Assembly: GCA_016867395.1 (NCBI GenBank)
Contig: VGJS01000016.1
Span: forward strand, 1 to 64,000
From: Candidatus Handelsmanbacteria bacterium
Lineage (GTDB): Bacteria; Latescibacterota; UBA2968; UBA8231
Direction: 5' to 3'
DNA length: 64,000 nt
A program made the position numbers and the translations under genes. Position 1 is the first letter of the stretch; every line of letters starts with the position of its first letter. Positions 9,980 through 54,250 of this stretch are shown here, in pieces. The notes under the pieces were generated by a model that ran no database searches, was not told where the DNA came from, and was given only the letters and a program-made list of their open reading frames with translations.

Positions 9980-9980
9980 A

Positions 9981-28044: not shown

Positions 28045-28145
28045 GCCAGTACTTGGTGGGGCTCATCGGCTGCGGCCGCAAGGGCACCCAGCACGCCAGG
28101 GCCTACCAGATCATCACCGCGTTGCCGCTGGAGTGGTTTAGGTAA
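28041..28145 (+). pseudogene. Gfo/Idh/MocA oxidoreductase, reduced to its first 22 or so codons
   Basis: ATG 28041 overlaps the preceding stop and starts SQYLVGLIGCGRKGTQHARA, the classic N-terminal Rossmann strand-loop-helix (GxGxxGxxHARAY) of Gfo/Idh/MocA dehydrogenases. After ARAY, at about 28106, the sequence becomes the 3' end of the opposite-strand DUF6785 gene, and the frame ends at TAA 28143-28145. About 300 codons are missing. This looks like a deletion or rearrangement junction, or an assembly join, exactly between the two genes. Confidence 0.65.
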
Positions 28146-30064: not shown

Positions 30065-31729
30065 TTAATGCGGTGCCTCCGGCAGGCGCACCTGGCCGAG
30101 TGCTTCGGGAAAGAGGCGGACCTGGGCGGCGTATTTCTCGCGCAGAGCGGCGACCAGGACGTTGAAGAGTTCCTCCTCCTTCTGGTAGCGCAAGGTGGCC
30201 CCGGCCTGTTCCCTGACCGCCGCGAAGGGCTGTGCCTGGCCGCCGCTTTTCTCCAGCAGGCGGAAGACCGAGTACCCTTCCTTGGCCGCCACCGGACCCA
30301 CTAGCTGCCCCGGTTCGGCCCCCAGGGCGCGGGGCACCAGCTCGCCGTGGGCGGTTTCCTCGTAGGAGTGGAGGTGGAGCCTGCCCTCGTTCTCCACCGC
30401 GCCGGGGCGCTGGCTCAGGTGGACTAAAGAGGCCAGGTCAGCGCCCTCATCCAGGTGCCGGCGTACCTGCAGAGCCTGTTCCTGGTCGGGCAGGAGAATC
30501 TCCTGGATCACCAACTCGGCGGGAGCGCTGAAGAGCTTGGGGCTGTCTTGGTAGAAACGCCGGGCCTCCTCCTCGCCAACGCTGATCTGGTCGCCGATGG
30601 CCCTCTGGCGCAGGGTCTTGAGCAGCAACTCGATAATTATGCGTTCCTTCCAGGCGAGGAAGGCCGGGGTATCCAGGTCTCCTTCCCGGCGGGCGGCCTC
30701 GGCGAAAAGAAAGTCCGGCAGCACCAACTGCCAGGCGGCGCGAACCACTTCGGTGCTGTCGCCCAGGCCGGGCCGGACCCCCGCCTGGCGAAAGACCGCC
30801 AGGTAGTCGCCGACGCTCACCTGCCCGCCCGCAAAGGTGTAGAGCGGGGTGGCGGCTTCCCAGGGGAAAAGCGGCGGAAAGAACTGCGCGCCAGACTGTT
30901 TGGCCACCAGGATCTCCAGTCCATCGCCTTGCAGCATGAGGTCGAATTGGTGGGCCAGTTCCTCGGCTGCCGCACGGCTTTCGCGGGCCAGCTTCTCCTT
31001 CCAGAGCCGGCGGTAGATTTGCGGGCGGTAGAGGGAGAAATCCGCGTCCCGCTCCTCGTCAAAACGGATTAACTGGTAGGCGCCCCGCAGGGGCAGCGGC
31101 GGGGAAGGTTGGCCGGGAGAGAGGGTGTCGAAAAGGGCTGGGGGGATGTGCAGACGCTCGGCCCAGGTCCGGTTGATGAAGCCCATGTAGCCTCCCTTGG
31201 CGGCCCGGTTCTTCTCCAGGGAGTGGGCCTTGGCCAGGGCGGCGAAACTCGACCCCCACCGCAGCGCCGCCTCCAGTTGCTCGGCCTCGGCCCGGGTCTG
31301 CACCACCAGCCGGCTGAGGGAGCGCTCGCGCGCCATTCCCGCCGCGGCGAAGTGGGTCTTGAGTTCCTCCTCCGCAACGCTGATCCGCCGGTTGAGCCGG
31401 GCCTCGCGGTAAGCCTTGACCGCCTGGAGGCGGCAGGCTGCTTCGAGCTCCGCCACCAGGGCGCCGGTGGTATCCAGGCCCATGGCCCGGGCTTCGCGGA
31501 CCAGCAGCTTCTCGTCGATCAGGGTCTGCAGGTAATCGAGGCGCGCCTCCTGGCCGGCTTTGGTCGAGCGCAACCCGGGCAACAGCGAGGCGGCGAAGCG
31601 CTCCACCTCCTCGGCGGCGATGAACTCCTCGCCCACTTGGGCGACGGGGCGCTCCGGGGCGCGGTCTCCAGCGCAGGCGGCCAGCGAGAAGAGCAGGGCC
31701 CACCACCAGGGGCGTTGCGGCCGCATCAT
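30065..31729 (-). CDS. Periplasmic peptidyl-prolyl isomerase, SurA/PpiC (parvulin) type, lipoprotein
   Basis: 554 aa. A signal peptide ends in a lipobox (LFSLAACAGD, Cys19). A SurA-like N-domain (residues about 25-125) follows. Two parvulin-type regions are visible: about 128-230 (SLSRLVVQTRAEAEQLEAAL … AKGGYMGFINR) and about 400-505 (LVIQEILLPDQEQALQVRRH … GELVPRALG … VFRLLEK). Such proteins chaperone outer-membrane proteins through the periplasm. Its ATG overlaps the TGA of the upstream outer-membrane protein gene, so the pair is translationally coupled and the isomerase may serve that protein. The catalytic pattern is weak in the first domain. Confidence 0.8.
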   Translation of the reverse strand: MMRPQRPWWWALLFSLAACAGDRAPERPVAQVGEEFIAAEEVERFAASLLPGLRSTKAGQEARLDYLQTLIDEKLLVREARAMGLDTTGALVAELEAACRLQAVKAYREARLNRRISVAEEELKTHFAAAGMARERSLSRLVVQTRAEAEQLEAALRWGSSFAALAKAHSLEKNRAAKGGYMGFINRTWAERLHIPPALFDTLSPGQPSPPLPLRGAYQLIRFDEERDADFSLYRPQIYRRLWKEKLARESRAAAEELAHQFDLMLQGDGLEILVAKQSGAQFFPPLFPWEAATPLYTFAGGQVSVGDYLAVFRQAGVRPGLGDSTEVVRAAWQLVLPDFLFAEAARREGDLDTPAFLAWKERIIIELLLKTLRQRAIGDQISVGEEEARRFYQDSPKLFSAPAELVIQEILLPDQEQALQVRRHLDEGADLASLVHLSQRPGAVENEGRLHLHSYEETAHGELVPRALGAEPGQLVGPVAAKEGYSVFRLLEKSGGQAQPFAAVREQAGATLRYQKEEELFNVLVAALREKYAAQVRLFPEALGQVRLPEAPH

Positions 31730-34413
31730 TCGCCCAGTCCTGCGAACACCGTGATGAAAGACTCGCTGGTGGTGGTGCCCTGTTGGCCGCGCGGGTTGCG
31801 GTGATCCAGTTTCAACCCCAGCTGGGTGATCAGGTTGTAGCCCTGGTAGGCCACGGAATTGGAGAACTGCAGAGCCAGGACCCGACTAACAAAGTCGTTC
31901 CGCTCGTCCTTCAGGTCTTTGAACCAGAGCAGTTCCGTGCCGCCCTCGATAAAGGTGTGGTTGAGCAGCGGAAAGCGGCCGATGAGGGACAGTAGCTCGT
32001 TCACTTCCTCGCGCTGGCGAGCGCTCACCAAGTCGCGCGACTGGTGGCGGTACTCGCTCTTCCAGCGCGGTTCGAGTTGGATGCGGCCGATGGCCAGACG
32101 GTAGCCGGCCTTGTTAATCAGCCCGAAGAAGTGCTCGTCCGACTTGAAGCCGCGCAGCTGGCGCTCCTGGCGGTCGAGCAGGACGTGGGTGAGGTCGAAT
32201 TTGAGTTGGTGGGAGAATTTCAGCTCGCGTATCCCGGTGTAGTCGAAGCCCAGCCAAAAGGAGTTGCTCCAGGCATTCGCGAAGAGCAGCGGGTCGGCGA
32301 CGCGGCGCAGTTCGCCCTCGGACTCAGCGGTGAGGTACACCCACTGGAAGAGGTTCTCGGGGATCTGGTCTTTGGTGCGCTTGGCCAGGTCGAAGAAGCG
32401 CAGGCGGCCCAGGCCGGGGTAGTCCCTTTCCACGGTGGCCATGAAGTAGTTGGTCCGGTTGCGGCGGTCCTCGGAGAGCAGCCGTTCGTCGATGCGGCCG
32501 GCCAGCAGGCGGACCTCGGGGGTGAGGTAAAAGCCGGTGTAGGCGTTGTAGCCCTGGTGGTCTCGCCGGTAGGGGTAGTCGGGATCCTCGTCGTTTTCGA
32601 AGCGGTCCACCCAGCCGTTGTTGTTGGCGTCGATGCCAAAGAGGTATTCGGGGCGGTCCACGTTGTAGCGCAGAAAGGGCTCCTCGTAGTCGGGGATCTC
32701 GTTGCGGCGCCGGCTGCGGCGGTTGTCGTTCTGGTTGAAATCGGAGATGAAGTCATTGTTCTCGTCCCAGCCGGGAAAAACCTCGTTGTCGCCGGTCAGC
32801 CAGTCGATGCGCTGGTTGTCGGGGAAGCGGTCCTGGTCGTCGTTGTCGTCGACGAACTCGAAGAGGCGGCGGGTGTCGCCGTAATCGACAAAGCCCGGCC
32901 GCGGGGTGTCCTGGGCGACCAGGCTGGTGGTAGAATAGTTGTTGTCCATACTGAAGGCCTCGCCCATGGCGAAGAAGGGATAGTCCTGCTTGGTCAGGTT
33001 CATCATCCAGGCTGGGGCGGCCCGCTTGCCGACCACCCCGGAAACGCCGTCGTGGGTGACCAGGTTGGGATTGGGGTACATGCGATACCTGTAGGAGAGA
33101 TCATATTCGCCGTAGAAATTGCACCCCAGCACGTTGCGCACCTCGACGGTGCCGCCGTAGATCTGGTTGGCCGTGGGCAGCCCGTAATCGAAGCTCAGGA
33201 TGCGCAGGTTGGAGTTGTCCCTGACGTTGCCCGGGGCGCGGGCGACCAACAGGGGCACGGACTGCTCGCCGGCTGAGCCCACCCCGCCGGTGCCGCGCGA
33301 GGTCTGGCGGTCCGAGTTGGCCCACACCTGGTAGTCGTTGCCTACCGCCAGTCGGAAGCGGAGCGCGGTGATCTCGGATTTGTCGCCGTGGGCATTGGAG
33401 ACAAAGTCGGGGCTGTCCAGGTCATAGCGGATGCGGATGGGCTCCCGGCCGTCCGCGGCCAGAAAGCCGGCGCGCTGGAACCCGCCCTCGATCACCGGCT
33501 CGAAGCCGATCTCTCTAGCGCTTTCGGAGAAGCCGTCCAGGTAGGTGACGGTCAAGTCCGACCCTCCCTGGAAGTAGGAGGCTCCGCCCACCCCGTCCTC
33601 GGGCGAATCGTCGCGCAGGATGACCTCCACCCAGGAGACGGGGCGCTCGTTCTGGTCCACGGTCAGTTCGCCCTTAATGAGGCTGCTTTCGAAGCTCGAC
33701 AGCTGGGTGTGGGACTGGTGGCTGTTGACCATGGTGGCGCCGAGGGTGACGAAGTCCCCGACCTGCACCGTGGCCCGGCCCCCGAAGAGGGAGGTGTTGT
33801 TGGTGAAGCGGATGGGTGGGTCGGCGGCACTGCCCCCCGGGGCGTTGACGCGGGAGTAAAGGATGGTGGCGGCGTACTTGTCCGAGGCCAGGTCCCATTG
33901 CAGGCCGTCGAACTGGGGTTTGGAAAAGGTCATCGGGGTCAGGGTGGTGCGCAGCCGGTTGCTAATGCTGAGGGCATAATAGTACTGGCCCCGGGCATCC
34001 GAGGAGATCACCAAGCTGTTAAACCAGCTGGAAAACCGGGAGTCCTTAAATAGGGAATTGCCGAACTGGTTCTGGGGCTGGGTCTGGGTGTGGTCGTAGA
34101 TCAGCCAGCCGCGGGTGACAAAACGGCCGTACAGGTCGTAGAAGTAGTCGCCCTGCAGGTTGATGTCCACGTAGCGCTGGAAGAGGTTACGGGCGTAGTT
34201 AGTGTACTCCCACTGGCGCCACTGGTACTCTCGGTACAGCTCCTGGGGCACGTACCACCGGCGCACGGCCGGGTCCAGGGCGTTGAAGAGCACGCCCGGC
34301 CCCTGGAGGGTGAGGATGGCGGTGCCTTCGGTGGCGCCGGCGCGGGGGCCGCGGCTCTGGGCCATGGCGGCGCTGGCACAGAGGAGGAACGCCCACAGCA
34401 GCCATTTTTTCAT
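31726..34413 (-). CDS. Large outer-membrane beta-barrel-like protein
   Basis: 895 aa from the ATG at 34413, which has an AAGGGAGAG ribosome site and starts a signal peptide (KKWLLWAFLLCASAAMAQS). An upstream in-frame start would add 21 charged residues and is unlikely. The chain is rich in aromatic and alternating strands (GQYYYALSISNRL, YGEYDLSYRYRMY, FWLGFDYTGIRELKFSHQLK) and ends in strands (GYNLITQLGLKLDHR … SFITVFAGLGE), as expected of a barrel. A central acidic segment (DDNDDQDRFPDNQRIDWLTG … GWDENNDFISDFNQND) looks calcium-binding. I do not recognise a named family; similar long proteins occur in FCB-group candidate phyla. It is encoded between the discoidin-type protein gene (16 bases) and the parvulin gene (overlap). 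Confidence 0.6.
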   Translation of the reverse strand: MKKWLLWAFLLCASAAMAQSRGPRAGATEGTAILTLQGPGVLFNALDPAVRRWYVPQELYREYQWRQWEYTNYARNLFQRYVDINLQGDYFYDLYGRFVTRGWLIYDHTQTQPQNQFGNSLFKDSRFSSWFNSLVISSDARGQYYYALSISNRLRTTLTPMTFSKPQFDGLQWDLASDKYAATILYSRVNAPGGSAADPPIRFTNNTSLFGGRATVQVGDFVTLGATMVNSHQSHTQLSSFESSLIKGELTVDQNERPVSWVEVILRDDSPEDGVGGASYFQGGSDLTVTYLDGFSESAREIGFEPVIEGGFQRAGFLAADGREPIRIRYDLDSPDFVSNAHGDKSEITALRFRLAVGNDYQVWANSDRQTSRGTGGVGSAGEQSVPLLVARAPGNVRDNSNLRILSFDYGLPTANQIYGGTVEVRNVLGCNFYGEYDLSYRYRMYPNPNLVTHDGVSGVVGKRAAPAWMMNLTKQDYPFFAMGEAFSMDNNYSTTSLVAQDTPRPGFVDYGDTRRLFEFVDDNDDQDRFPDNQRIDWLTGDNEVFPGWDENNDFISDFNQNDNRRSRRRNEIPDYEEPFLRYNVDRPEYLFGIDANNNGWVDRFENDEDPDYPYRRDHQGYNAYTGFYLTPEVRLLAGRIDERLLSEDRRNRTNYFMATVERDYPGLGRLRFFDLAKRTKDQIPENLFQWVYLTAESEGELRRVADPLLFANAWSNSFWLGFDYTGIRELKFSHQLKFDLTHVLLDRQERQLRGFKSDEHFFGLINKAGYRLAIGRIQLEPRWKSEYRHQSRDLVSARQREEVNELLSLIGRFPLLNHTFIEGGTELLWFKDLKDERNDFVSRVLALQFSNSVAYQGYNLITQLGLKLDHRNPRGQQGTTTSESFITVFAGLGE

Positions 34414-34429: not shown

Positions 34430-36817
34430 CTAATAGACCACCGCGATCGCGCCCGCCTTTTCCTCGGCCCGGGCATCGGCCCGGATCTTCACCCGGAACA
34501 GATAGAGGCCCGGAGGCACCACCTGCCCCCTGCCGTCGGTGCCGTCCCAGGGGACGGCATAGCGGCCGCTGGGGACCCCGATAGCGTGGAGGGTCCGGAG
34601 GTAGACGCCGGCCAGGGTGTAGAGCTGGACCGACAGCGAGGCCGGTTCGGTGACCTTGAGCACGTCGTAGCGGATCTCGGTGCGGTCGTTGCGGCCGTCG
34701 CCATTGGGCGTGAAGGGGTTGGGAAAGGCGCTAACCCCGCTCAAGAGCTGGCCGCTCAGGTCGATTAGCACGGTGAGCCCGGAGAGGTTGTCGGCGTCGC
34801 CCTCGCCCAGGCTGGCCACATTGCCGGCCACCGCCGGCTGGGGCAGTCCCGCGCTCTGCTCGTCGAAGGCCCAGCCCTCAAAGGTGGTGCCGTAACGCAG
34901 GACCGCGGTAGCGAAGCGGAGTTGGAGCACCGAGTTACTGTTGGCGACCCGCGGGAAGCGCACCCGGAAGCGGTCCTCGCCGACGGCCACCAGAGCAAAA
35001 TCCCCTTTCTGGAGGGGCAGATTCAAACCCTCCACTGGCTCGCCGAAGGCCTGGGAGGCTCTAACCTGGCCGTCGGCCTCGAGCAACCGGATCTCGACCA
35101 AGCGCTGGATGGGCACCGGGGTGCGGATCTCGAAGCTGTCGAAACCCAGGTCGCCGGCCGGGTCGATCAGGGGGCGCACCGCGTAAGTAAACTCCACGTT
35201 TTGGTCCGGGGCCACCTCGCGGGGAAAGATCTCGGCCAGCAGTTTCTGGGCTAGGGGAGGGGTGGAGACTTCGAAGCTCAGGGAGTCGAGGCTCTGGGCC
35301 GCGTCGAGATCGCTTTCGAAGCGGACCTCGAACTGGAAATAGCGGCGCGGGGCGGGTGAGGTGATCTGGACGCCTTGCTGCCCTCCTTCGGCCGGATAGG
35401 GCGCCGACCAGGGGCTCCAGTGCTCGTTGTCGTCTAGAATCGGCCCGCGCTCCTCAGCGGGCAGGGCGTTGTAGGTGGCGGCGGTCAGCAGATTGCCCTT
35501 CCGGTCATAAGGCACCTCCTCGTCGATATTGGCGCGCCGGAAGTACTGGGCCCCGCCTTCCGCGATCCAGGCCCTGACCGCGCGGCTCAGGCCTTTGTAG
35601 ATATCCGGGGGGATCTGGGTCGCCCCCAGCGAGACCGTGTCCTGGGCCTCGGCAGCGGCTGCCTCGTACGCGGCGCGCCCGGGCTGGGGCTCCCCCCCGA
35701 CCAGGGTGTAGCTGGCGCCGGCACCCTCCAGCCAGTCCTTCACCTCCAGGACCAGGGCCCGGTACTCCGTCGGCGAGAGGCGCCGGGAGGGCAGTTGCAC
35801 CGGCATCAGCGCCCCGCCCACCTCGGCCCGCTCGTAGGAGATTTGGTCCAGGGCAAAGCGGAAAGGCTCCTCGCTCAGCCCGCGCGAGGTCACTGTGCGG
35901 GTGAAGATCAGGGTGGTGGGCACGGCGCCGGTGCGGGTGCGCACGAAGAGGCGCGACTTGCGCGGATCGCCAATGGCCTGGGCGGCCCAGCGGAGCCGGC
36001 CCCAAACCGCCTTCTTTTCTCCCAGGTCGAAGACATCGGAGAGGAAACGGCTGGCGGGTACGTACCCCCGCCCGTACAGCTCGATCTCGTCCACCTCGAA
36101 ACCCACCGTGGTGAGGGAGGTCAGGCGCAGGTGGCGGACGAACTGGAGCGGGATGGCGACCTGGGTGTCGGACTGGGTGTTGTCCTCGTCGCGGGCTATC
36201 AGGGTCCACAGGGGCGAGCCGGACTCGGTGAGATTGGCCGGAGTGCCGTCGCTGACGCTGAGCTCGTAGGCCTTGAGGAAGTCGCTGGGGAAGAAGGAAC
36301 TGGGGAAGAAGCGGATGCGGTCGATGCCGAAGCGCTCGCCCAAGTCGATGTCGATGTGCTCGCCCAGGGGGTTGACGTTCCTCTTGGTGGGCGAACTCTT
36401 GCGCACGTACACCGTCTCGCTGCCGTCGATGATGCCCCCCAGGATCCGGTCCAGCTCGGCCGGGGCGATGTCGCCGACGTTGGGCGAGGAGATGAGGGGA
36501 AGGCCCCCCTGTTCGCGGATGAGGTCAAAGACGTTGCGCGCCGGATCGATCTGAGTGGGAGAGATCCGGCCCGGCGCGGATTCAAAGTCGACGATCCCGC
36601 CCGGGGCATTGCCCTTGCCGGCGCTGCGCGCGGTGAGGGGAAAATCAGGGGGCAGCGCAGGAGGCGAGCTTTTTTCATCCCCCCCCCCTTGCTGCCAGGG
36701 GTGTTCCGCGCCGCCGATGACGATGGTCTGCACTGCCAGTCCCTGGTGCGCGAAAATCAGCGCTCCGCACCAAAACCAAAATCGGATTAGATAGAGGAAA
36801 AATCTGCCAAAGTTCAT
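34430..36817 (-). CDS. Secreted discoidin-type protein A with 'YNALP…RGP' motif and C-terminal NPFTPNGDG domain
   Basis: 795 aa from ATG 36817, giving a signal-anchor-like N-terminus (NFGRFFLYLIRFWFWCGALI … GLAVQT). Residues about 120-260 resemble an F5/8 type C (discoidin) sandwich (IDIDLGERFGIDRIRFFPSS … VDEIELYGRGYVP). A second sandwich and linker follow. The unit TYNALPAEERGPI leading to WSPWSAPY lies near residues 445-470. Then comes a module shared with the two plus-strand relatives (PRRYFQFEVRF … AEIFPREV … DLGFDSFEI). Residues about 700-795 are the FlgD-like C-terminal domain (AFPNPFTPNGDGRND … PWDGTDGRGQVVPPGLYLFR), ending IAVVY. It leads a minus-strand operon with the barrel-like and parvulin genes. 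Surface adhesin or component of an outer-membrane complex, by inference. Confidence 0.7.
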   Translation of the reverse strand: MNFGRFFLYLIRFWFWCGALIFAHQGLAVQTIVIGGAEHPWQQGGGDEKSSPPALPPDFPLTARSAGKGNAPGGIVDFESAPGRISPTQIDPARNVFDLIREQGGLPLISSPNVGDIAPAELDRILGGIIDGSETVYVRKSSPTKRNVNPLGEHIDIDLGERFGIDRIRFFPSSFFPSDFLKAYELSVSDGTPANLTESGSPLWTLIARDEDNTQSDTQVAIPLQFVRHLRLTSLTTVGFEVDEIELYGRGYVPASRFLSDVFDLGEKKAVWGRLRWAAQAIGDPRKSRLFVRTRTGAVPTTLIFTRTVTSRGLSEEPFRFALDQISYERAEVGGALMPVQLPSRRLSPTEYRALVLEVKDWLEGAGASYTLVGGEPQPGRAAYEAAAAEAQDTVSLGATQIPPDIYKGLSRAVRAWIAEGGAQYFRRANIDEEVPYDRKGNLLTAATYNALPAEERGPILDDNEHWSPWSAPYPAEGGQQGVQITSPAPRRYFQFEVRFESDLDAAQSLDSLSFEVSTPPLAQKLLAEIFPREVAPDQNVEFTYAVRPLIDPAGDLGFDSFEIRTPVPIQRLVEIRLLEADGQVRASQAFGEPVEGLNLPLQKGDFALVAVGEDRFRVRFPRVANSNSVLQLRFATAVLRYGTTFEGWAFDEQSAGLPQPAVAGNVASLGEGDADNLSGLTVLIDLSGQLLSGVSAFPNPFTPNGDGRNDRTEIRYDVLKVTEPASLSVQLYTLAGVYLRTLHAIGVPSGRYAVPWDGTDGRGQVVPPGLYLFRVKIRADARAEEKAGAIAVVY

Positions 36818-36951
36818 TGCTCGACGCTTTCCAGAGTATTCCGCCGCAGCGGTCTCAGGGAAGCAAATGGATGAAGCGCTGGCAGCCGAAACCGACCCTG
36901 CTGCGCAACTGAAAGTATAGGTCGGGGTCTTAAGCTTTGTCAAACTTTAAC

Positions 36952-36980
36952 TTGACAACCCCATACCCGGTCGCAATATT
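36952..36980 (+). promoter_or_regulatory. Sigma70-like promoter for the CBM9-like gene
   Basis: Exact TTGACA at 36952-36957, a 17-base spacer and AATATT at 36975-36980. It would give a leader of about 165 bases before the ATG at 37151. Confidence 0.5.
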
Positions 36981-36999
36981 TTGCTACAAAATTATCCGC

Positions 37000-37016
37000 A
37001 CCCTTGTTACAAGGGT
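37000..37016 (+). promoter_or_regulatory. Palindrome just downstream of the promoter (operator or leader hairpin)
   Basis: ACCCTTG-TTA-CAAGGGT, a perfect 7-bp inverted repeat, begins about 20 bases after the -10. A weak GGCC…GGCC hairpin and five T residues (37036-37040) follow, so an operator or a small attenuator is possible. Confidence 0.35.
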
Positions 37017-37150
37017 GTTGGCCGCGTCTTGGCCGTTTTTCCGAAAAGGAGGTGGTAGGGGACAGCCGAAAGCCGCAAGGGATATGCCGAGCGATGCAGT
37101 CACGAACTCAAATGAACCCAATCTGCGCGTAAAGCGTACGAGGACGAGCG

Positions 37151-38071
37151 ATGACAAAAAAGAGACAGCCTTGGTTGCCCCTTGCGATCCTGGGGCTGGC
37201 GACTACGGCCTGGGCCCACGTGCCCGCCGATCGCATCTTTCTGGCCTTCCAATGGCCTGACAAAGCCATGCCGATCATTGACGGCAAGCTCGACGAATGG
37301 AGGATTGTCCCGGAAGTCTACGTGATTAAGCCCGAGGACACCCACGAGTCCCTTTACAGCAATCCTATCGATAAGTCCGACCTGGATTTTCGCGGCATCA
37401 TCGGGTACAACGACGCCAGCGACAAGATCCTTGCCGCCACCCAGGTCTTCGACGATTTCCACGAGCGCGACAACACGGACCCGGGCAGCTGCAACTGCGC
37501 GGACGACAACTTCGAGTTTTGGATCGACGGCGACCACGCCGGCTCCCCCTACGTAGCCGAGTACGGCACCGCAGAAGGGGCCAGCGCTGAGGAGCGCGAG
37601 CGGGCGACCAACTCCACTCTGCAGTGGTGGTCCATCGCCGTGCCCCCGGTGGGCGACCGGGACGTGCAGAGCGGCAATACCGGCCAGTGGCAGGACGACC
37701 CGCCCCACTTCGATTTCGCCTGGTCCTTTAAGGGCGAGCAATTCGGCGAAAGTACTTATTACTACGAGATGTCCTTCACAGTGTGGGATGATATGGACTT
37801 CCGTGGCCCGGCCACTAGCACTCCCAGCACCCTGGAGGAGGGCGAGATCATCGGCATGAACTGGATCGTCTCGGACTACGACGGCGCCAAGGCCCAGCGC
37901 GTCAACGCGGACGGCAGCACCACTTATGACGGGTACTGGATCACCGGCGGCCCCTGCTGCGACGGGGTGAACGCCAGCGACTTCCTGCTGGCCCCTCTCG
38001 AAGAGGGAGTGTTTAAGGGCACCGCGGTGGAGACCAATACCTGGGGGCGGATCAAATCCCGCTTCCAGTGA
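37151..38071 (+). CDS. Secreted CBM9-like (carbohydrate-binding, DOMON-type) protein
   Basis: 306 aa, ATG 37151 with GAGGA upstream. Signal peptide to about residue 22 (LPLAILGLATTAWAHV). The body has the CBM9-like order: IIDGKLDEWRIVPEVYVI at the start, a DLDFRGIIGYNDASDKILAA strand pair, FDDFHERDN, DDNFEFWIDGDHAG and, near the end, GMNWIVSDYDG. Such modules bind reducing ends of glycans or, in related families, heme or sugars. No catalytic domain is attached. It is followed by a strong terminator, so it is probably transcribed alone from the promoter at 36952. The cysteine pairs (SCNC, PCC) are unusual for a periplasmic or surface CBM9 and could form disulfides. Confidence 0.7.
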   Translation: MTKKRQPWLPLAILGLATTAWAHVPADRIFLAFQWPDKAMPIIDGKLDEWRIVPEVYVIKPEDTHESLYSNPIDKSDLDFRGIIGYNDASDKILAATQVFDDFHERDNTDPGSCNCADDNFEFWIDGDHAGSPYVAEYGTAEGASAEERERATNSTLQWWSIAVPPVGDRDVQSGNTGQWQDDPPHFDFAWSFKGEQFGESTYYYEMSFTVWDDMDFRGPATSTPSTLEEGEIIGMNWIVSDYDGAKAQRVNADGSTTYDGYWITGGPCCDGVNASDFLLAPLEEGVFKGTAVETNTWGRIKSRFQ

Positions 38072-38114
38072 GCCGCCGCTGGCTGCGCCGGCGTTTCAGG
38101 GGTAGTTGAAACTG

Positions 38115-38153
38115 CGAGCGAGGGAGGCCGCGGCGGCCTTCCTCGCTCGTTTT
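38115..38153 (+). terminator. Strong intrinsic terminator after the CBM9-like gene
   Basis: A GC-rich stem of 9 bp (38115-38123 with 38141-38149), extended inward by an AGGCCGC/GCGGCCT arm, is followed by TTTT at 38150-38153. It separates the CBM9-like gene from the discoidin-type gene starting at 38186. Confidence 0.8.
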
Positions 38154-38185
38154 ATGTCTCGGGCTGCGACGAGGAGGCAAGCGGT

Positions 38186-41100
38186 ATGGAAGGGGCGAAG
38201 GCGGTGAAGGCGCGGAGTGGGCTCGTGGTGTTCTTCCTGGTCCTCGTCGGGCAGGCCTGGGCCCAGGGCTTCAGGCTCGAGGGCCAGAGGCTGGTGGTGA
38301 GTGCCCAGCAGGAGTGGCAGCAATGGAGCCTGGGGGACCTCCAGCAGCCCCTCGGCGAGATCCGGCAGGACGTGGTGGAGGTGGGGCCCGAGGGCAGGAT
38401 CAGCCCCCGTCTCATCCAAAAGCGCATCGACGCCGTGAGCGGCGCGCCCACCTTTAGCCATTTCATCGAGGGCAAGACCAAGGACTTCTACACCGACGTA
38501 TTTCAGACGGGCAACGACCTCTATGCCCGGGGCGGCATTAAGGGGGCCGGTTCGAATCTGTCCCTGGCAGCCTGGGCCATCGACAGGGGCGAAGACCGCC
38601 TGAGGACCTTCTGGGAGCCCGACTTGGACCGCCCTTCCAGCGACTGGTGGCTGGAGATCGACCTGGGGCGCCTGGTCTCGGCGGAGAAGGTGATCGTCCG
38701 TTTTGTTGGCGAAGAGCTGGGCGATCCCTTCCTGCAGTTCCGGGTCCTGGTCTCCAACGGCGACTTTGCCTTTGGCAACCGCCAGACCCTGGAGTACCGC
38801 TCCATTGGCGGCACCACCCAGGGCATCCGCGACCAGCGGCTCTTCGAGTTCCCTCTCAGGCCGGATGCCAGGGCGGATCCCGAGTACACCGGGTCGCCCA
38901 TCCAGTACGTGCGCCTGGTGGTCACCGAGAGCAGGAAGGGCAGGGCGGCCCGGGTGAGCCGGGCAGAATACGAGGCCCTGCCGGCCCAGCAGCGGGGCGA
39001 GGTGGTCTATGTCCTCAAGACCTTCGACGGCGCCCAAATCGAGTCCACCCGCACCGAGTTCGAGGGAGTGGCGCCCGAGCGGCAGGGGGAGGTGCGCTAC
39101 TTCCGCCGCGAGCGACCGCGGCTGGCCGACGTGGAGGTGACCTCGGTGGGCGACAACGTGGCCCTCGGCATCCCCCAGCGCGGCGGTAGGATCGAGGTGA
39201 GCGGCCTGGAAGGCCATATCCCGGCCAATGCCTTCGACGGGGACTACCGCTCCTACTGGAAGGCCCAGACCTTTCTCGAAGCAGGGCCGGGGAGTGAGCG
39301 GGGAGGCCTGCTCACGGTGGATCTGGGCACTCAATTCTGGATGGATTCCTATCGCGTCATTCCCCAGCGCGCCCTGCTGGGGTACACGGTCCGGGTTTCG
39401 GATGGGGCAACGGCCTCGGACGGCTCCCTGCTATGGGAGCCCATCAGCCCGCCGGAACGCACCATCAACAACTCGTCGATTCAGCGCTTCGTCGATTTCT
39501 TCGAGCCGCGGCGGGTCCGCTACTTCGAGTTCAAACACGTCGATGGCACTGGACAGGCCTCCGGCCAGTACGGGGCCCAGTACGAGATCGGGGAGATCCA
39601 GCTCTTTGGCGAGGGCTTTATCCCGGAGGTGACCCTTACCTCGCCGCTGATCGAGCTGGGGGGAACGCGCAACCTGACCAGCGTCGAATGGGCCGGCGAG
39701 GCGCCGCCGGGTACCAGTATCGAGATCCGCACACAGACCGGCAACGAGCTCATCCCGGTCAAGCACTTTTTCGACAAGGGGGGCAAGGAGGTCACCCGCG
39801 ACAGGTACTACAACCAGCTGGCCGCCTTCCAGCGCGGCGACTCCACCGAGACCTTCACCGCGGGGGTGGACTGGAGTCCGTGGAGCAAACCCTACGAACG
39901 CTCGGGGGATCCCTTCCTCTCACCCACCCCAAGGCAGTACCTCAAGCTCCAGGCGCGCTTGCGCTCGCAGGGGGCCAACGCCTATGCCACGCTGGACTCA
40001 CTGGTGGTGCGGTTCACCGATCCCCTGGCCCGCCAGATCCTGGCCGAGGTGTCCCCCCAGGTCGAGGTCAAGAGCGTCGAGGTGGATACCTTCTCTCTGT
40101 ATCTGCATCCTCTATTTGTCGATCAGCCGGCGCGGCTGCGCAGCGGGCGCTTCGACGAGATCCTGGTGAAGGCCTCGCACCAGACCGGGATGGAACTGGT
40201 TGAGCTGGGCATAGGGAGCCAGAAAGATCTTCTCGCCGGCTTGGGAGAGCGCTACCGACCCGATGCCCAGGGGCGCTGGGTTAATGCCGCTGGGGCGGCC
40301 CTCGACCTCCGGCCCACCCAGGCGGATTCCCTTTGGGTCCACCTGCCGCGTCTTTTAGACCGGGATCCAGAACGCCCCCCAGTCTACCAACGCATCGCCC
40401 AGGAGGGCGACGAGGCCCCCCTCAACAAGCAGGGGGGAAACCTCACCGCCAAGGAGTACCACCTGCTGCCGCCCGGCGAGCGGGGCAGCATCAAATACTT
40501 CCGGGTCAACGGCACCGACGAGGACGGCGGGCAGGTGCTGGAGGAAGTGGACGAGGGGGCCTATGCCGGGCTCAATTTCGAGGAGCAGGGCCCGGTGCGC
40601 TACTATCGCCTCCTCTTCTTGGGTGAGGAGGTGGAACTGGACCCACAGGGCAATCCCCTGACCCAGGCCACCTACAACGCCCTGCCGGCCAGCCGCCGCG
40701 GCCCGGTGTTTGTGGAGGGGGAGACCGCTGTGCTGCGCTTCCGTTCCCGGATCTTCCTGAACGGCACCAGCTTTTCGGCCGCGGTGGCCCGCGCCGACCT
40801 CCCCGGCTCCTGGCAGCAGGCCTCTCCGGGAGACGCGGTGAAACGACTCCAGGGCAGCGGCACCTCGGTGTTCATCCCCATCGAGAACCGCGTACTCCAC
40901 AGCCTGGAACTGGTTCCCAATCCTTTCACCCCCAACGGCGACGGGATCAACGACCGCCTGCGCCTGGTGGCCGCGCTGCTGAAGATCGATGCGCCGCGCC
41001 GGATCGCGGCCCGGTTCTTCACTCTGAGCGGAACATCGGTGGCCGAGGTCTCCGGCCTGGTCACCGGCGGACAACAGGTGCTGGAATGGGACGGGCGCGG

Positions 41101-41209
41101 TCCCGGGGGGAAGCTGGTGCCGCCGGGGATCTACCTGTGTCGCCTGCACGTGGATACCGACCAGGGGGAGAACAACGAGCTGGTCCGGCTGGTCAGCGTG
41201 GTGTACTGA
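38186..41209 (+). CDS. Secreted discoidin-type protein B with repeated 'Y-x-x-LP…RG' motifs and C-terminal NPFTPNGDG domain
   Basis: 1007 aa, ATG 38186 with GAGGAGG upstream. Signal peptide to about residue 27 (GLVVFFLVLVGQAWAQ). Two discoidin-like sandwiches are visible: about 120-250 (WWLEIDLGRLVSAEKVIVRF) and about 340-480 (GGLLTVDLGTQFWMDSYRVI … YEIGEIQLFGEG). The short motif recurs at about 257 (RAEYEALPAQQRGEVVY), 290 (EFEGVAPERQGEVRYF), 537 (RYYNQLAAFQRG … WSPWSKPY), 753 (KEYHLLPPGERGSIKYF), 790 (GLNFEEQGPVRYY) and 826 (ATYNALPASRRGPVF). Residues about 910-1007 form the FlgD-like domain (LVPNPFTPNGDGINDRLRL … LVPPGIYLCRL), ending VSVVY. It is the longest of three related proteins and is three bases from the next gene. 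Function unknown; likely exported surface protein. Confidence 0.7.
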   Translation: MEGAKAVKARSGLVVFFLVLVGQAWAQGFRLEGQRLVVSAQQEWQQWSLGDLQQPLGEIRQDVVEVGPEGRISPRLIQKRIDAVSGAPTFSHFIEGKTKDFYTDVFQTGNDLYARGGIKGAGSNLSLAAWAIDRGEDRLRTFWEPDLDRPSSDWWLEIDLGRLVSAEKVIVRFVGEELGDPFLQFRVLVSNGDFAFGNRQTLEYRSIGGTTQGIRDQRLFEFPLRPDARADPEYTGSPIQYVRLVVTESRKGRAARVSRAEYEALPAQQRGEVVYVLKTFDGAQIESTRTEFEGVAPERQGEVRYFRRERPRLADVEVTSVGDNVALGIPQRGGRIEVSGLEGHIPANAFDGDYRSYWKAQTFLEAGPGSERGGLLTVDLGTQFWMDSYRVIPQRALLGYTVRVSDGATASDGSLLWEPISPPERTINNSSIQRFVDFFEPRRVRYFEFKHVDGTGQASGQYGAQYEIGEIQLFGEGFIPEVTLTSPLIELGGTRNLTSVEWAGEAPPGTSIEIRTQTGNELIPVKHFFDKGGKEVTRDRYYNQLAAFQRGDSTETFTAGVDWSPWSKPYERSGDPFLSPTPRQYLKLQARLRSQGANAYATLDSLVVRFTDPLARQILAEVSPQVEVKSVEVDTFSLYLHPLFVDQPARLRSGRFDEILVKASHQTGMELVELGIGSQKDLLAGLGERYRPDAQGRWVNAAGAALDLRPTQADSLWVHLPRLLDRDPERPPVYQRIAQEGDEAPLNKQGGNLTAKEYHLLPPGERGSIKYFRVNGTDEDGGQVLEEVDEGAYAGLNFEEQGPVRYYRLLFLGEEVELDPQGNPLTQATYNALPASRRGPVFVEGETAVLRFRSRIFLNGTSFSAAVARADLPGSWQQASPGDAVKRLQGSGTSVFIPIENRVLHSLELVPNPFTPNGDGINDRLRLVAALLKIDAPRRIAARFFTLSGTSVAEVSGLVTGGQQVLEWDGRGPGGKLVPPGIYLCRLHVDTDQGENNELVRLVSVVY

Positions 41210-41212
41210 GCC

Positions 41213-43441
41213 ATGGCGTTCAAGGAACTGGTTTCCAGGTGCTGGCGCTCTTTGTGGGGGCGGGCGGCCCTCCTGCTCGTCTTCGCCTGGGGCTGGCGGC
41301 TGGTCTACCTGGGGCAGATGGCGTCCCGGAACCCCTGTTTCGACGCCCCGGTGGTGGATGCCCAGACCTATTTCCAGCAGGCCCAGCAACTGGCCACCGT
41401 CTTCAGCCTGGGGGATCAAGCTTTCTGGCAATCGCCGCTCTATCCCTCGTTTCTCGGGCTCCTCTACCGGCTCTGGGGCGCCGATTTCTACGCCTTCCGC
41501 CTGGTCCAGTTCGCCCTGGGCGGGCTCAGCGCCGCGCTCCTGTATCTGCTGGGCCGGCGGCTCTTCTCCGAGTGGGTAGGCCTGGTGGCCGGCGCCCTGC
41601 TGGCCCTCTACGGCCCCCTGATCTATTTCGAGGGGGAGCTCCTGCCCCCGGTGCTGGCCGTCTTGCTGAACCTGGGGCTTTTGCTCCTGCTGGGCGGGAC
41701 CCGGATTCTCCGCCGGGACATCCTTTGTTTCGGGGCCGGGCTCCTGCTGGGCCTGTCCGCCGCGGCGGTGCCCAGCGTCCTGCCCTTTGGGGCCGGCGCC
41801 GCAGGTTGGCTGCTGTGGCAGGAGGGCCGGTGGGGCAGGCGCCTGCGGCGGGCGGGCCTGTTCGCCGCCGGCGTCCTGCTCGTTATCGGTGGCCTCACCC
41901 TGAGGAATTACTGGGTCAGCAGCGACTGGGTGGTGCTCTCCGCCAATGTGGGGCTCAGCTTTTACCTGGGGAACAACCCCGAGTACGAACAGACCGTGCG
42001 CATCCGGCCGGGAACCGACTGGTACGAGTTCATCCAGCAACCGCAGCGGGCCGGCCTGGAGAAGGCCTCCGAGAAATCGGCCTACTTCTGGAGCGCCGCC
42101 TTTGCCTTCATCCGCCAGCAACCCCTCGCGTACCTGGAATTGCTGGCCCATAAGCTGCGGCTTTTCTGGCAGGGGGGCGAGTTGGGGCGCAACACCGACG
42201 TCTACTTCGCCAGGCGCTACTCGCCCCTGCTGGCGGCCCTGGTCTGGCAGCGGGGGATCGCCTTCCCCTTCGGGCTGCTGGGCCCCCTGAGTTTGTTGGG
42301 GCTCTTCCTGGCCATCCGCGCCAGCAAGGCGCCCTTGCTGGTGCTCTTTGTCCTCAGCTACACCGGGGCGGTGGTCGCCTTTTTCGTCACCGATCGCTAC
42401 CGCCTGCCGGTGGTCCCCGCCTGCCTCCTTTTGGCCTGCTGGGCCGGGGTGTGGTTGAAGGAGCGCTTCGCCGCCCGTCAGTGGCGGGCCCTGGCCCCGG
42501 CCCTGGCGGTTTTGCTGCTGCTGGGCTGGCAGCTCAACGCCGGGGCTCAGATTATGCAGGACGACGCGCAGGAGCATTTCTACGCCGGGCTAGCGTGCGC
42601 GCGCAAGGGCTTGCTTACCCGGGCCACCGGCGAACTGCAGGTCGCCCTGCAGCTGAATCCGGGCCACTACGACGCCCGCTGCAAGCTGGCCGAGCTGGAG
42701 GCGGAGCTGGGCAATCGCGACCAGAGCTTGGCCCATTACCGCTTCCTGGTCGAGCATTTTCCGCACCGCCCGGGCCCTCGGCACAACCTGGCCGGTCTGT
42801 ACCTGGAGAGCGGCCTGACCGACACGGCCCTGGTCCTGTTCCGGGAACTGGTCTCCCTGGAACCGGGGCAGGCCCGCTACTACTACGGCCTGGCCGGGGC
42901 CTACCGCCAGAGCGGGCGCCTGGCCGAGGCCGAGGCCGCTTATAGGCGGGCCCTGGAGCTGGATCCCGAGCACTTCGAGGCGCACTACAACCTGGCCTAT
43001 GTCTTCGACCTCCAGGGCAAAGGCCAGGAGGCAGAGGCGGAGTACCAACGGCTCCTGGAGCGGGATCCCCAGCACCGGGACCTGCGCAACAACCTGGGGG
43101 TAGTGTACCTCAAGCGCCGCGCCTTTGCCGAGGCCGCGGCCCAATTCGAGCAGGTGCTGGCCCGGCAGCCCAGCCACCGGCGGGCCTGCCGCAACCTGGC
43201 CATCGCGTACGAAGGCCTGGGCCGTTACTCGGAGGCCGTGCAGCTCTACCAGCGCCTGGTGGACAATGGCGAGGAGGAGCAGGTCCACAACCACCTGGCA
43301 CGGCTCTACACCAAGCTGGGCGACCGGGCGGGCGCCGCCCAGGAACGGCGCAAGCAGCAGATTTTGACGCGCGGAACGGAATATTCCCGGCTCGTCCGCG
43401 ACCAGTTCGAGCAGTATTTTGAAGGAGGACTGCCGCAATGA
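41213..43441 (+). CDS. GT-C-type membrane glycosyltransferase with C-terminal TPR domain
   Basis: 742 aa. The N-terminal about 445 residues hold around ten transmembrane helices and the ArnT/PMT-like layout: a first-loop acidic motif (CFDAPVVDAQTYFQQA), then QSPLYPSFLGLLYRLWG and an RLVQFALGG helix, and later NPEYE and VTDRYRLPVVP. From about 455 to 715 come six or more TPR units (LAEAEAAYRRALELDPEHFEAHYNLAYV). PMT-like enzymes move sugars or other groups from polyprenyl carriers to proteins or lipids on the outer face. The TPR part would sit outside the membrane and may recruit the target. The gene lies between two discoidin-type protein genes and overlaps the next by four bases, so glycosylation of those proteins is an attractive inference. 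Confidence 0.75.
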   Translation: MAFKELVSRCWRSLWGRAALLLVFAWGWRLVYLGQMASRNPCFDAPVVDAQTYFQQAQQLATVFSLGDQAFWQSPLYPSFLGLLYRLWGADFYAFRLVQFALGGLSAALLYLLGRRLFSEWVGLVAGALLALYGPLIYFEGELLPPVLAVLLNLGLLLLLGGTRILRRDILCFGAGLLLGLSAAAVPSVLPFGAGAAGWLLWQEGRWGRRLRRAGLFAAGVLLVIGGLTLRNYWVSSDWVVLSANVGLSFYLGNNPEYEQTVRIRPGTDWYEFIQQPQRAGLEKASEKSAYFWSAAFAFIRQQPLAYLELLAHKLRLFWQGGELGRNTDVYFARRYSPLLAALVWQRGIAFPFGLLGPLSLLGLFLAIRASKAPLLVLFVLSYTGAVVAFFVTDRYRLPVVPACLLLACWAGVWLKERFAARQWRALAPALAVLLLLGWQLNAGAQIMQDDAQEHFYAGLACARKGLLTRATGELQVALQLNPGHYDARCKLAELEAELGNRDQSLAHYRFLVEHFPHRPGPRHNLAGLYLESGLTDTALVLFRELVSLEPGQARYYYGLAGAYRQSGRLAEAEAAYRRALELDPEHFEAHYNLAYVFDLQGKGQEAEAEYQRLLERDPQHRDLRNNLGVVYLKRRAFAEAAAQFEQVLARQPSHRRACRNLAIAYEGLGRYSEAVQLYQRLVDNGEEEQVHNHLARLYTKLGDRAGAAQERRKQQILTRGTEYSRLVRDQFEQYFEGGLPQ

Positions 43442-45393
43442 AAGGCAAGGGGCTTCTGCACCTGGCACTGGCGGGTATATGGATTGCGCTGGGCCTGGGC
43501 CTGCAACCGGCCCAGGGGCGCGCCTTGCTGGTGATCGGCGAAACGGATGGTCCCTGGTCCGTGGAGCCAGGGCTGACCGTGGACCGGCGCGCCTGGATCG
43601 AAGCGGCGGCCCGGCGGCCCGAGTCCTTCTATCCTCAAGGGGGGGGCCTGGAAATGCTGGACACCTCGGGGACGTACATCGCGCCGTTCCTAGTGACCCC
43701 GGATTACAACCTCAGCCTGGGGTACCTGGAGCGGGGTGGCTGGGAGCGCACCCGCATCGGGGAGCGGGACAAGCAGTTCTTCCGCGCCCTGGACGGGGAC
43801 ATCTCCACCTTCTTTTTCTTCGCCGCCGACATAAGGGGCTACGGCAGCGTGTGGCCCACGGTGGACCTGGGAGGGGTCTTTCCGGTCAACCGGATCCTGT
43901 TCTACACCCACCCTGACCGCAAGGAGCAGTACGCGGACTATTTCACCCTTTACCTCAACGACGGCGATCCGGCCAAGCTCGACCGAGACGGGATCCCAAT
44001 CTGGGAGGGGATCCGGCAGGAGACAGAGAACAAGAACCCGGTGGTGGAGACGGTCTTTCCCGTTCGCCCGGTGCGGTACGTCTCCCTCCTGTCCCAGGCC
44101 TTCTACAGCGCCTCCGGGGGAGTGAGCCGCCCCAAGCCCTGGGAGATCGCCGAGTTCGAGATCTACGGCGAAGGCTACGTCCCGGAGGCCAGCTACGTCT
44201 CGGAGATCATCGACATCTCCCAGGTCGCCCCGGAACTGCCGGGCAGGGAGGCCAGCTGGGGGCGGCTGCACTGGCAGGGTCGGGCCGATCCGGGTGCCAG
44301 GGTGTCGATCCGCACCCGCACGGGCCGGGACGACGATCCCAATGTCTACTGGTGGAACACCGGCCGTGGCGACGAACTCTCCACCCTGAATGTCGATGGC
44401 ACACCCCTGAACTACGACGACTACCTCAAGGTCCCCAATACCCAGCGGGGTCCCGTTACCTACGACACCGAGAACTGGAGTTTCTGGTCGCCGCCCTACG
44501 ATTTCGATCAAGGGAACGCCGGGGCCCCCATCGTGTCGCCCGGGCCGCGGCGCTACCTCCAGTTCCGGGTCGATTTCTCCTCCACCACCACCGCGGGCAG
44601 CCGGCTGGAAGCCCTGGGCTTCGACTTCTCCAAGCCGCCCGGCGCCCAGGCGGCAGTCGCCGAGATCTTCCCCCGGGAGGTGGCGGCCGGGGTGGACACC
44701 ACCTTTACCTATTTCCTGCGCCCCACCCTTGGGGAGTCAGACTTGGGTTTCGACAGCCTGGAGATCGAGACCTTCGTGCGGCCGACCCGGGTACGCACTG
44801 TGCGCATCGAGGGTCAGCCGGTGGACCTGCAGGTCTACCCGCCGGAGCTCCTTGACCACGGGCTGGTAGTGCATTTCCCCCGCTTCGGCCCCCAGGACAC
44901 CCAGAAGCTGCTGGAGGTGGTCTTCGATGCGAAGGTGGTGCGTTACGGGACCGAATTCAGCGGCCGGATCTACGACCGGGAGCGGGATGAGGTGCGCCAG
45001 CTGGTGGACTCCGGGGACGCGACCAACGCCTACCGCGGCACGGGGGTTTCGGTGACCATGCCCTTTTCCGACCAGATCATTGGTTCGGTGCGGGTCGAGC
45101 CGTCCCTATTCACGCCCAACGGCGACGGGATCAACGAGCAGGCCAGCATCTCTTATGCCTTGCTCAACCTCACCGCTCCGGTCCAGACCAGCCTGATCAT
45201 TTACGACCTGTCCGGCCGCCAGCTCCGCCGGGTGCAGCAGGGCGTCCTGCAGAGCGGCATCTTTCAGTGGGCCTGGGACGGCCGGACCGGCGATGGCGCC
45301 CTGGCCCCGCCGGGCAATTACCTGTACCGTATACTTGTGAAGGCCGACGCCCGCGACGCCCAGCACCTCGGGATCATCGCCGTGGCCTACTGA
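43438..45393 (+). CDS. Secreted discoidin-type protein C with one 'Y-x-x-x-P…RGP' motif and C-terminal NPFTPNGDG domain
   Basis: 651 aa, ATG 43438 overlapping the previous stop (ATGA). Signal peptide to about residue 26. A discoidin-like region spans about 110-245 (VDLGGVFPVNRILFYTHPDR … AEFEIYGEGYVPEASYVSEI), then a sandwich (EASWGRLHWQGRADPGARVS) and the motif DDYLKVPNTQRGPVTYDTEN leading to WSFWSPPY near 325-350. The shared module follows (PRRYLQFRVDF … AEIFPREVAAG … DLGFDSLEIET), then the FlgD-like domain from about 550 (VEPSLFTPNGDGINEQASIS … WAWDGRTGDGALAPPGNYLY), ending IAVAY. It is the most compact of the three relatives and shows their minimal common architecture. In the C-terminal signature the usual PNPF is SLF. 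Confidence 0.72.
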   Translation: MKGKGLLHLALAGIWIALGLGLQPAQGRALLVIGETDGPWSVEPGLTVDRRAWIEAAARRPESFYPQGGGLEMLDTSGTYIAPFLVTPDYNLSLGYLERGGWERTRIGERDKQFFRALDGDISTFFFFAADIRGYGSVWPTVDLGGVFPVNRILFYTHPDRKEQYADYFTLYLNDGDPAKLDRDGIPIWEGIRQETENKNPVVETVFPVRPVRYVSLLSQAFYSASGGVSRPKPWEIAEFEIYGEGYVPEASYVSEIIDISQVAPELPGREASWGRLHWQGRADPGARVSIRTRTGRDDDPNVYWWNTGRGDELSTLNVDGTPLNYDDYLKVPNTQRGPVTYDTENWSFWSPPYDFDQGNAGAPIVSPGPRRYLQFRVDFSSTTTAGSRLEALGFDFSKPPGAQAAVAEIFPREVAAGVDTTFTYFLRPTLGESDLGFDSLEIETFVRPTRVRTVRIEGQPVDLQVYPPELLDHGLVVHFPRFGPQDTQKLLEVVFDAKVVRYGTEFSGRIYDRERDEVRQLVDSGDATNAYRGTGVSVTMPFSDQIIGSVRVEPSLFTPNGDGINEQASISYALLNLTAPVQTSLIIYDLSGRQLRRVQQGVLQSGIFQWAWDGRTGDGALAPPGNYLYRILVKADARDAQHLGIIAVAY

Positions 45394-52323: not shown

Positions 52324-52324
52324 A

Positions 52325-53254
52325 ATGAGCGTCGAGGTGGTCTGCGCCGGGGTGCTGGTGGCCGACACCTTTGTGCCGCCCCTGCCCCGGCTGCCGGCCG
52401 AGGGGGAGTTGATGGCCACCGGCGGCTTCTGGCACGATTCGGGCGGGTGTGCGGCCAACACCGCCACCAGCCTGGTCAAGCTGGGGGTGCGGGCCGGGGT
52501 GGCCGGCGCGGTGGGCCAGGATGCGGGCGGGGATTTCGTCGCGCGGGATCTCAAGCATAAAGGGGTGGATATCGCCGGACTGCGGCATGTGTCCTCGCCC
52601 ACCTCGGAGACGGTGATCCTGCCGGTCAGCGGCCAGGATCGGCGCTATGTACACACCTTTGGGGCCAATGCGGATTTCCGGGTGGAGGATATCTCGCGCG
52701 AACAGGTGGCCGGGGCCGAGGTGCTGTGTTTGGGAGGATACTTGATCCTGCCTGGTTTCGATCCGGGGGCATTGAGGGAGTTGCTGGCCTTTGCCCGGAA
52801 GCAGGGGGTGAAGACGGTGCTGGACGTGGTGGTGACCCAAGGAGGTGGGGGCTGGGAGGCGTTGGCGCCGGTATTGCCGGAGGTGGACTACTTCACCCCC
52901 AACGACCACGAGGCGCAGTTGCTCTCCGGGAAGGTGGAGCCCCGCGCCCAGGCCGAGCGGTTGTTGGCGGCCGGCTGCGGGATGGCGCTGATCACCCGGG
53001 GGGAGAAGGGGGTGTTGGCGGCGCACGGGGATGAGGTGCTGGAGCTGCCGGCCTTTGCCCTGCCGGTGGTGGATGGCTCGGGGGCGGGGGACGCCTTCGC
53101 CGCCGGCCTGATCGCCGGATTGCTGCGCGATTGGGAGCTGCGCGACTGCCTGCGGCTGGCCAGCGCCCTCGGCGCCTCGGCCTGCACCAAACTGGGCTGC
53201 ACTCCCGGGGTCTTCACCTGGGAAGAGGCCGAAACCTTCCTGAGGGACCACTGA
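52325..53254 (+). CDS. PfkB-family sugar kinase
   Basis: 309 aa. Ribokinase-fold signatures: GG-type motif near the N-terminus (SGGCAANTATSLVKLG, residues about 39-54) and the anion-hole/catalytic motif DGSGAGDAFAAG near residue 250, with the catalytic Asp in GAGD. The substrate-lid segment is short. It starts one base after the mannosidase stop and its TGA overlaps the ATG of the aldolase, so the genes are translationally coupled. Fructose (made from mannose by the downstream isomerase) or fructose 6-phosphate are the likely substrates by context; sequence alone cannot decide. PfkB enzymes act in the cytoplasm with ATP. Confidence 0.87.
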   Translation: MSVEVVCAGVLVADTFVPPLPRLPAEGELMATGGFWHDSGGCAANTATSLVKLGVRAGVAGAVGQDAGGDFVARDLKHKGVDIAGLRHVSSPTSETVILPVSGQDRRYVHTFGANADFRVEDISREQVAGAEVLCLGGYLILPGFDPGALRELLAFARKQGVKTVLDVVVTQGGGGWEALAPVLPEVDYFTPNDHEAQLLSGKVEPRAQAERLLAAGCGMALITRGEKGVLAAHGDEVLELPAFALPVVDGSGAGDAFAAGLIAGLLRDWELRDCLRLASALGASACTKLGCTPGVFTWEEAETFLRDH

Positions 53255-54147: not shown

Positions 54148-54225
54148 CACTGGCACAGCGGCGGGAAAAAGGTCCTGGAGGATTCTCCCGTGGAGTGGTC
54201 TTGGGGATAGGCAGCAAGTCTTACG

Positions 54226-54250
54226 CCGCACCCCATACGTTGGGGCGCGG
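54226..54250 (+). promoter_or_regulatory. Hairpin in the leader of the 2-oxoacid dehydrogenase genes, sharing a core with the 18.35-kb hairpin
   Basis: CCGC-A-CCCCA pairs with TGGGG-C-GCGG (one A-C mismatch) around loop TACGT, 41 bases before the ATG at 54291. The core CCCCA-TACGY-TGGGG recurs at 18363-18377. No T-run follows, so it is not an obvious terminator. It lies in the only sizeable gap of the catabolic run. Confidence 0.4.

Follow-up and report, generated by a model that had tools for sequence, protein, structure and literature searches.

The window, i.e., the whole stretch of 64,000 nucleotides analysed here, contains two operons that both start from one divergent region. On the minus strand, the gene of protein A (34430..36817) comes first and is followed by those of an outer-membrane beta-barrel of 895 aa (31726..34413), a lipoprotein with two PPIC (parvulin) domains (30065..31729) and a DUF6785-DUF6784 multi-pass permease (28103..30052), the successive intergenic distances being 16, -4, and 12 bp, so that the barrel and parvulin genes overlap by 4 bp. 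On the plus strand, a CBM9-like protein (37151..38071) is followed by protein B (38186..41209), a PMT_2-type membrane glycosyltransferase with C-terminal TPRs, hereafter PMT-TPR (41213..43441), protein C (43438..45393), whose gene overlaps that of the glycosyltransferase by 4 bp, a TPR protein, and an ASPIC/FG-GAP protein. A preliminary description had called open reading frames for A, B, and C and had named a barrel, a parvulin, a CBM9-like protein and a membrane glycosyltransferase with TPRs beside them, all of which are indeed present. The CBM9-like assignment draws on relatives, 8 of 25 matching CBM9_1 (PF06452; best E-value 5.2e-9) and the window member itself being without a match, as well as on a profile match to the CBM9 of a xylanase (1i82) at 4e-4. 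The permease is a recurrent partner at other loci; DUF6785 had no relative in the PDB or NCBIfam, and a literature search found no paper on it.

Further genes surround the two operons. Behind the TPR protein, positions 46500-48143 encode FG-GAP and UnbV/ASPIC domains, and ASPIC relatives occur in 17/43 long barrel loci. Next comes a sugar-catabolic cluster adjoining the cassette (49780-63534), with a GH38 alpha-mannosidase, a PfkB kinase, a class II aldolase, a D-lyxose isomerase, a 2-oxoacid dehydrogenase set, and a ribose-5-phosphate isomerase. Near the permease lies a PcRGLX-like protein (exo-rhamnogalacturonan-lyase type; 24892-27345), possibly a polysaccharide-degrading enzyme. Farther away (936-14831), three consecutive very large proteins (1653, 1361, and 1616 aa) carry FlgD_ig-type ends, the third also showing HYDIN/ASH Ig domains and FG-GAP repeats, with a dockerin type I match above cut-off.

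Surface proteins, type IX secretion genes and the barrel

Proteins A and C each comprise one discoidin-like domain, a WS sandwich and a FlgD/CHU_C C-terminal domain, while B is composed of two discoidin domains, a WS sandwich, a C-terminal module and a FlgD/CHU_C domain. All three had been presented as discoidin proteins, which stands for B (PF22633, 32.4 bits for a Pfam cut-off of 27.8) and is weak by sequence in A and C. A fold search with the model of B relates its discoidin domains to fucolectin, to CBM32, and to the b1b2 pair of neuropilin. As such, B shares with F5/8 type C proteins (discoidin, CBM32) both the fold and, with neuropilin b1b2, the tandem arrangement but differs from them by strand-strand-helix loop units belonging to no described family. 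The FlgD-like end reported earlier is borne out, FlgD_ig passing its Pfam cut-off in A (27.8 bits) and C (40.2 bits), and CHU_C scoring 24.2-26.8 bits in A, B, and C, i.e., slightly under its cut-off of 27. CHU_C is found at E<=1 in 30/30 B-type proteins (best 8e-10), and the last residue is Tyr in 29/30 B-type relatives. Regarding the peptides AEIFPREV and DLGFDS(L/F)EI, formerly ascribed to all three proteins, they are exact in A and C only, the equivalents in B being AEVSPQVE and SGRFDEIL. Pfam detected neither SLH nor any S-layer family in the three proteins. A short PDB match of A to gamma-glutamyltranspeptidase (E 0.006) was absent for B and was dropped. Dozens of A/B/C paralogues are encoded in the same genome; at another locus (L032:9028-12756), a B-type gene is broken over several frames, apparently as a decaying copy or through assembly error.

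Genes of the type IX secretion system (T9SS) are found in the same genome, namely SprA (SprA_N), PorV and a PorU-like C25 peptidase. Considering these genes together with the FlgD/CHU_C ends, A, B, and C are probably T9SS cargo. On the curated type B model (TIGR04131, cut-off 35 bits), they score 20.7, 13.0, and 24.2 bits, respectively, and are thus termed type-B-like only. Elsewhere in this genome (G000:C3:114890-117830), a PorV-like gene directly adjoins the PorU-like C25 peptidase gene, a pair which indicates a T9SS with attachment machinery in the lineage.

The barrel was modelled with a mean pLDDT of 77 and exhibits ~24 long strands, a well-modelled domain (residues ~240-410) inserted between strands 6 and 7, and an acidic, Asp/Asn-rich loop (residues ~490-618) that is poorly modelled and strikingly conserved in sequence. 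This segment (DDNDDQDR...DENNDFISDFNQND...DANNNGWVDRFENDEDPDYPY) appears to resemble repeated calcium-binding loops. Foldseek retrieved only generic large barrels, namely MtrB, SlpA, the FimD usher, and LptD, at TM 0.17-0.26, and with a TM of 0.18 the SlpA match says no more than that the protein is a large barrel. In ushers, a domain is inserted between strands 6 and 7, as in the barrel model. Beyond being large barrels, though, MtrB, FimD and LptD have no sequence relation to the protein and their partners are absent from the cassette. In Pfam, the barrel has no match at E<=1, including to Plug and TonB_dep_Rec domains, while Plug proteins are present elsewhere in the genome; PF11751 (PorP_SprF) is matched neither by the barrel nor by any protein of the genome. 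For the barrel, no energy-coupling partner could be identified. About 20 such barrels are encoded in this genome, and as many as 64 first-look candidates per genome in relatives.

A motif unit inserted in sandwich loops

The recurrent motif singled out in the preliminary description, here written [YF]xx[LVI][PAN]xxx[RQ]G, occurs once in A (DRKGNLLTAATYNALPAEERGPI; 35438..35506, minus strand, in a WS-domain loop), six times in B and once in C (NVDGTPLNYDDYLKVPNTQRGPV; 44389..44457, plus strand), the strict form YxxLPxxxRG accounting for one, three and one copies, respectively. In shuffled sequences, 0.03-0.04 occurrences per protein are expected by chance, i.e., ~0.1 for A, B, and C together. 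AlphaFold predicts B with a mean pLDDT of 86 and gives the units an ordered structure. Each unit, ~30 residues long, consists of two strands, the second of them short, followed by a helix, and is inserted in a loop of the sandwiches, with the consensus DK-x-G-x-E-[VI]-[TSD]-xxx-[YW]-xx-L-xxxx-[RQK]-G-x-[VI] and a spacing of 28-37 residues when in tandem.

From an alignment of 30 B-type proteins, the two-discoidin type has six fixed loop sites, all on the plus strand in B. Sites 1a (38951..39004) and 1b (39020..39094) form a tandem in the first discoidin domain and are present in 27/30 and 26/30 proteins, respectively; site 2 (39773..39841), present in 28/30, lies in the WS sandwich and runs into WSxWSxxY (WSPWSKPY in B); sites 3a (40424..40492), 3b (40517..40597), and 3c (40640..40708) are three tandem units that the long form carries in its C-terminal module. 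At sites 1a, 1b, and 2, the Tyr/Trp, Leu, and Gly of the unit are conserved. Units are 39% identical to those at the same site in other proteins vs. 27% to those at other sites of their own protein, and in 100/119 cases the closest relative is the same site of another protein; the module thus spread early and was kept thereafter. As such, it provides an example of a single short module fixed in loops of one and the same protein, in three distinct domains. At another locus (L059:1630-4926), two added units sit at a new loop (TYWEPSTLVTKADYNDLTPAVKGP...), so the module is able to enter new sites.

The eight copies in A, B, and C served to build a profile, which was iterated on the discoidin-FlgD family and run over the 78 named loci and the genome of the window, a set of 6826 ORFs that includes spurious ones. 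It returned 116 units in 71 proteins, 114 of them in discoidin-FlgD proteins with the same C-terminal domain, as anticipated, and the remaining two in a broken copy. In all sequence searched, the motif is limited to these surface proteins, and since the loci were chosen for carrying genes of the family, this confinement is a specificity within those loci rather than across all life. The motif is nonetheless no signature of the whole family, being carried by 56/70 two-discoidin proteins vs. 11/152 other members, and a detectable unit is missing from about 14/70 of the former. In agreement with the initial impression that no named domain has this pattern, no family in Pfam, NCBIfam or the PDB covers it, the best PDB match of the profile having an E-value of 0.59. 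Partial matches to Phage_tail_C (PF24243), COX_ARM and Apelin were below cut-offs and inconsistent, and were dropped: for Phage_tail_C, the window unit aligns over 10 residues of a 26-residue model (13.4 bits for a cut-off of 23.7), with weak matches in 3/30 B-type relatives. A phage collection searched with the site-3 stretch of B and a plasmid collection searched with B gave no match.

Recurrence of the cassette in the phylum

The 78 named loci retrieved by scanning genomes for the barrel come almost exclusively from MAGs labelled Latescibacterota or Gemmatimonadetes. A discoidin-FlgD protein is encoded in 74 of these 78 loci, directly adjacent to the barrel on the same strand in 68, and the PMT-TPR glycosyltransferase in 29. 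Of the 43 long loci, 35 encode a B-type protein, 34 the parvulin, and 33 the CBM9-like protein; 24 combine all four partner types, in line with the conserved neighbourhood formerly suspected. The expectation that the motif always stands beside a barrel does not hold: in the genome of the window, where A/B/C paralogues and barrels are mostly side by side, 7/22 motif proteins have no barrel in the stretch examined, three of them being on short or cut contigs. As regards the DUF6785 permease, 23 copies occur in the 43 long loci vs. 8.7 expected from genome density (~2.6-fold), and it abuts cassette genes by 4-17 bp at several other loci; a simpler gene-level comparison (7/70 flank genes vs. 2/69 background, p=0.17) is not significant. 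Glycoside hydrolases are absent from the commonest families in the flanks of cassette loci.

In a set of 64 genomes from the phylum, 39 encode the barrel, and the motif is found in 34 of these 39 vs. 0/25 barrel-negative genomes (Fisher 3.6e-13), a contrast to be read with the relatedness of the genomes in mind, independent events being far fewer than genome counts. Copy numbers of motif and barrel correlate among genomes (rho 0.84). Both occur in families f1, f5, f6, f8, and f9, the barrel alone in f7, and neither in f2, f3, f4, and f10. SprA is found in 60/64 genomes. PorP/SprF is found in 14/25 barrel-negative vs. 2/39 barrel-positive genomes (p=7e-6, uncorrected for relatedness), almost confined to the barrel-free family f4 with two weak matches in f9; the matches being weak and nearly all from one family, the split between barrel and PorP/SprF may be lineage history. 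TonB-dependent receptors occur in every genome examined, and their counts show no drop with barrel presence of a kind that would mark replacement. In a Mantel test, the divergence of the barrel correlates weakly with that of its neighbours and no better for the adjacent C-terminal domain (rho 0.15) than for non-adjacent ones (0.25), which gives no support to specific barrel-cargo pairing.

Possible roles: capture, shuttling or coat

In the best reading, a complex of secreted proteins would capture a glycan or another solute on a dedicated barrel, working much like SusCD or SprB/SprF and belonging to neither, and the locus would be one of many copies of a trans-envelope capture cassette in Latescibacterota; we hold this tentatively, at somewhat less than an even chance. 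From their families, A, B, and C would be exported by the T9SS through their FlgD/CHU_C ends; once at the cell surface, discoidin domains and the CBM9-like protein, judging by their folds, would bind a glycan or another solute, which might then pass through or onto the dedicated adjacent barrel. The lipoprotein parvulin could help in folding the barrel or the cargo in the periplasm, the PMT-TPR enzyme may add O-glycans to the surface proteins, and, in about half of the long loci, the inner-membrane permease DUF6785-6784 would complete the route to the cytoplasm. The motif insert would most likely serve as a contact surface for partners in the complex. A bolder version, where the 24-strand barrel imports the substrate from T9SS-exported discoidin proteins docked by the strand-strand-helix inserts, as a third, undescribed multi-copy capture machine of Latescibacterota besides the SusCD/TonB-dependent and PorP/SprF ones, is rather improbable.

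Compared with SusCD and polysaccharide utilisation loci (PUL), the cassette likewise associates a multi-copy outer-membrane barrel with surface binding proteins, along with an inner-membrane permease in half of the cases and, at the window copy, adjoining sugar-catabolic genes including GH38. It differs in that the barrel has no Plug/TonB-dependent receptor match, no SusD match was found in the cassette proteins scanned, the surface proteins look T9SS-exported instead of being lipoproteins, and glycoside hydrolases are not enriched in the flanks examined; unlike in a classical PUL, they are not among the top flank families, and the ligand may thus not be a polysaccharide. With SprB/SprF and PG1035/PorP, it shares the FlgD/CHU_C-type C-terminal domain, the T9SS core, a cargo gene beside a barrel gene and several pairs per genome, but the ~24-strand barrel of 895 aa is without a PorP_SprF match, the cargo scores fall short of the curated type B model, the cassette additionally has genes for CBM9, parvulin, PMT-TPR and permease, and barrels reach ~20 to 60 per genome.

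Import-type capture is ranked first, as the cassette has binding domains, occurs in many copies and is accompanied by a permease in about half of the long loci. Against it stand the weak co-divergence of barrel and neighbours, the non-significant gene-level permease test, the lack of an energy-coupling partner and the ubiquity of TonB-dependent receptors, which leaves such a cassette no uptake gap to fill. A close second is a barrel acting as a functional substitute of PorP/SprF, i.e., a shuttle or anchor taking A, B, and C from the T9SS translocon for display or adhesion, with transport secondary, a reading that is itself on the unlikely side. Its standing stems from precedent, type B cargo in Flavobacterium often being genetically linked to cognate PorP/SprF shuttles (PMC12618676) and such cargo binding PorP-like barrels, as in SprB/SprF and PG1035/PorP (PMC9143113), as well as from the near-exclusion of barrel and PorP/SprF in a phylum where SprA is nearly universal. 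Conversely, the barrel is far larger than PorP/SprF and lacks PF11751, one barrel serves several cargo proteins, FlgD-tailed cargo is also encoded far from any barrel, families f2, f3, and f10 have neither barrel nor PorP/SprF, and the C-terminal domain shows no preferential co-divergence with the adjacent barrel. Import-type capture and a shuttle or anchor are mutually compatible.

Two further possibilities bear on the coat and on the motif. A structural coat built of discoidin proteins and barrel, serving as a surface layer or adhesive device of a generic type with no import, in which the many cassettes provide antigenic or receptor variety, would account for the large numbers of paralogues, the sandwich-rich cargo, the PMT-TPR glycosyltransferase and the loose Foldseek resemblance to SlpA, but this resemblance is uninformative at its TM, Pfam detects no S-layer family in A, B, and C, and the permease is enriched near cassettes; we consider it quite unlikely. 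The units themselves could be neutral loop insertions duplicated in one protein family with no role of their own, as hinted by their absence from some two-discoidin proteins and by the extra pair in one lineage; their retention at sites 1a, 1b, and 2 in 26-28/30 proteins with conserved residues, their same-site kinship and their ordered models make this unlikely, if less so than a mere coat. Surface display or adhesion, the function initially put forward, thus remains one of three candidates, T9SS export, which had gone unnamed, being the clearest mechanistic element.

Parts of these types are known; no description appears to exist of the barrel family, the insert module or their arrangement. 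A literature search for Latescibacteria with discoidin proteins or T9SS found no paper linking them, and, in its passages on outer-membrane uptake, a 2015 single-cell analysis gives only non-specific porins and TonB receptors (PMC4454575). The main result, more than the motif itself, is the locus, where barrel, discoidin proteins, CBM9-like protein, lipoprotein parvulin and PMT-TPR recur together. It points to a T9SS route outside Bacteroidota, where PorP/SprF is missing and another barrel may stand in. Repeated ~20 to 60 times per genome, the barrel family and its partners are probably central to the lifestyle of these bacteria, and they make the cell surface of a widespread, uncultured group accessible to study at the level of genes.
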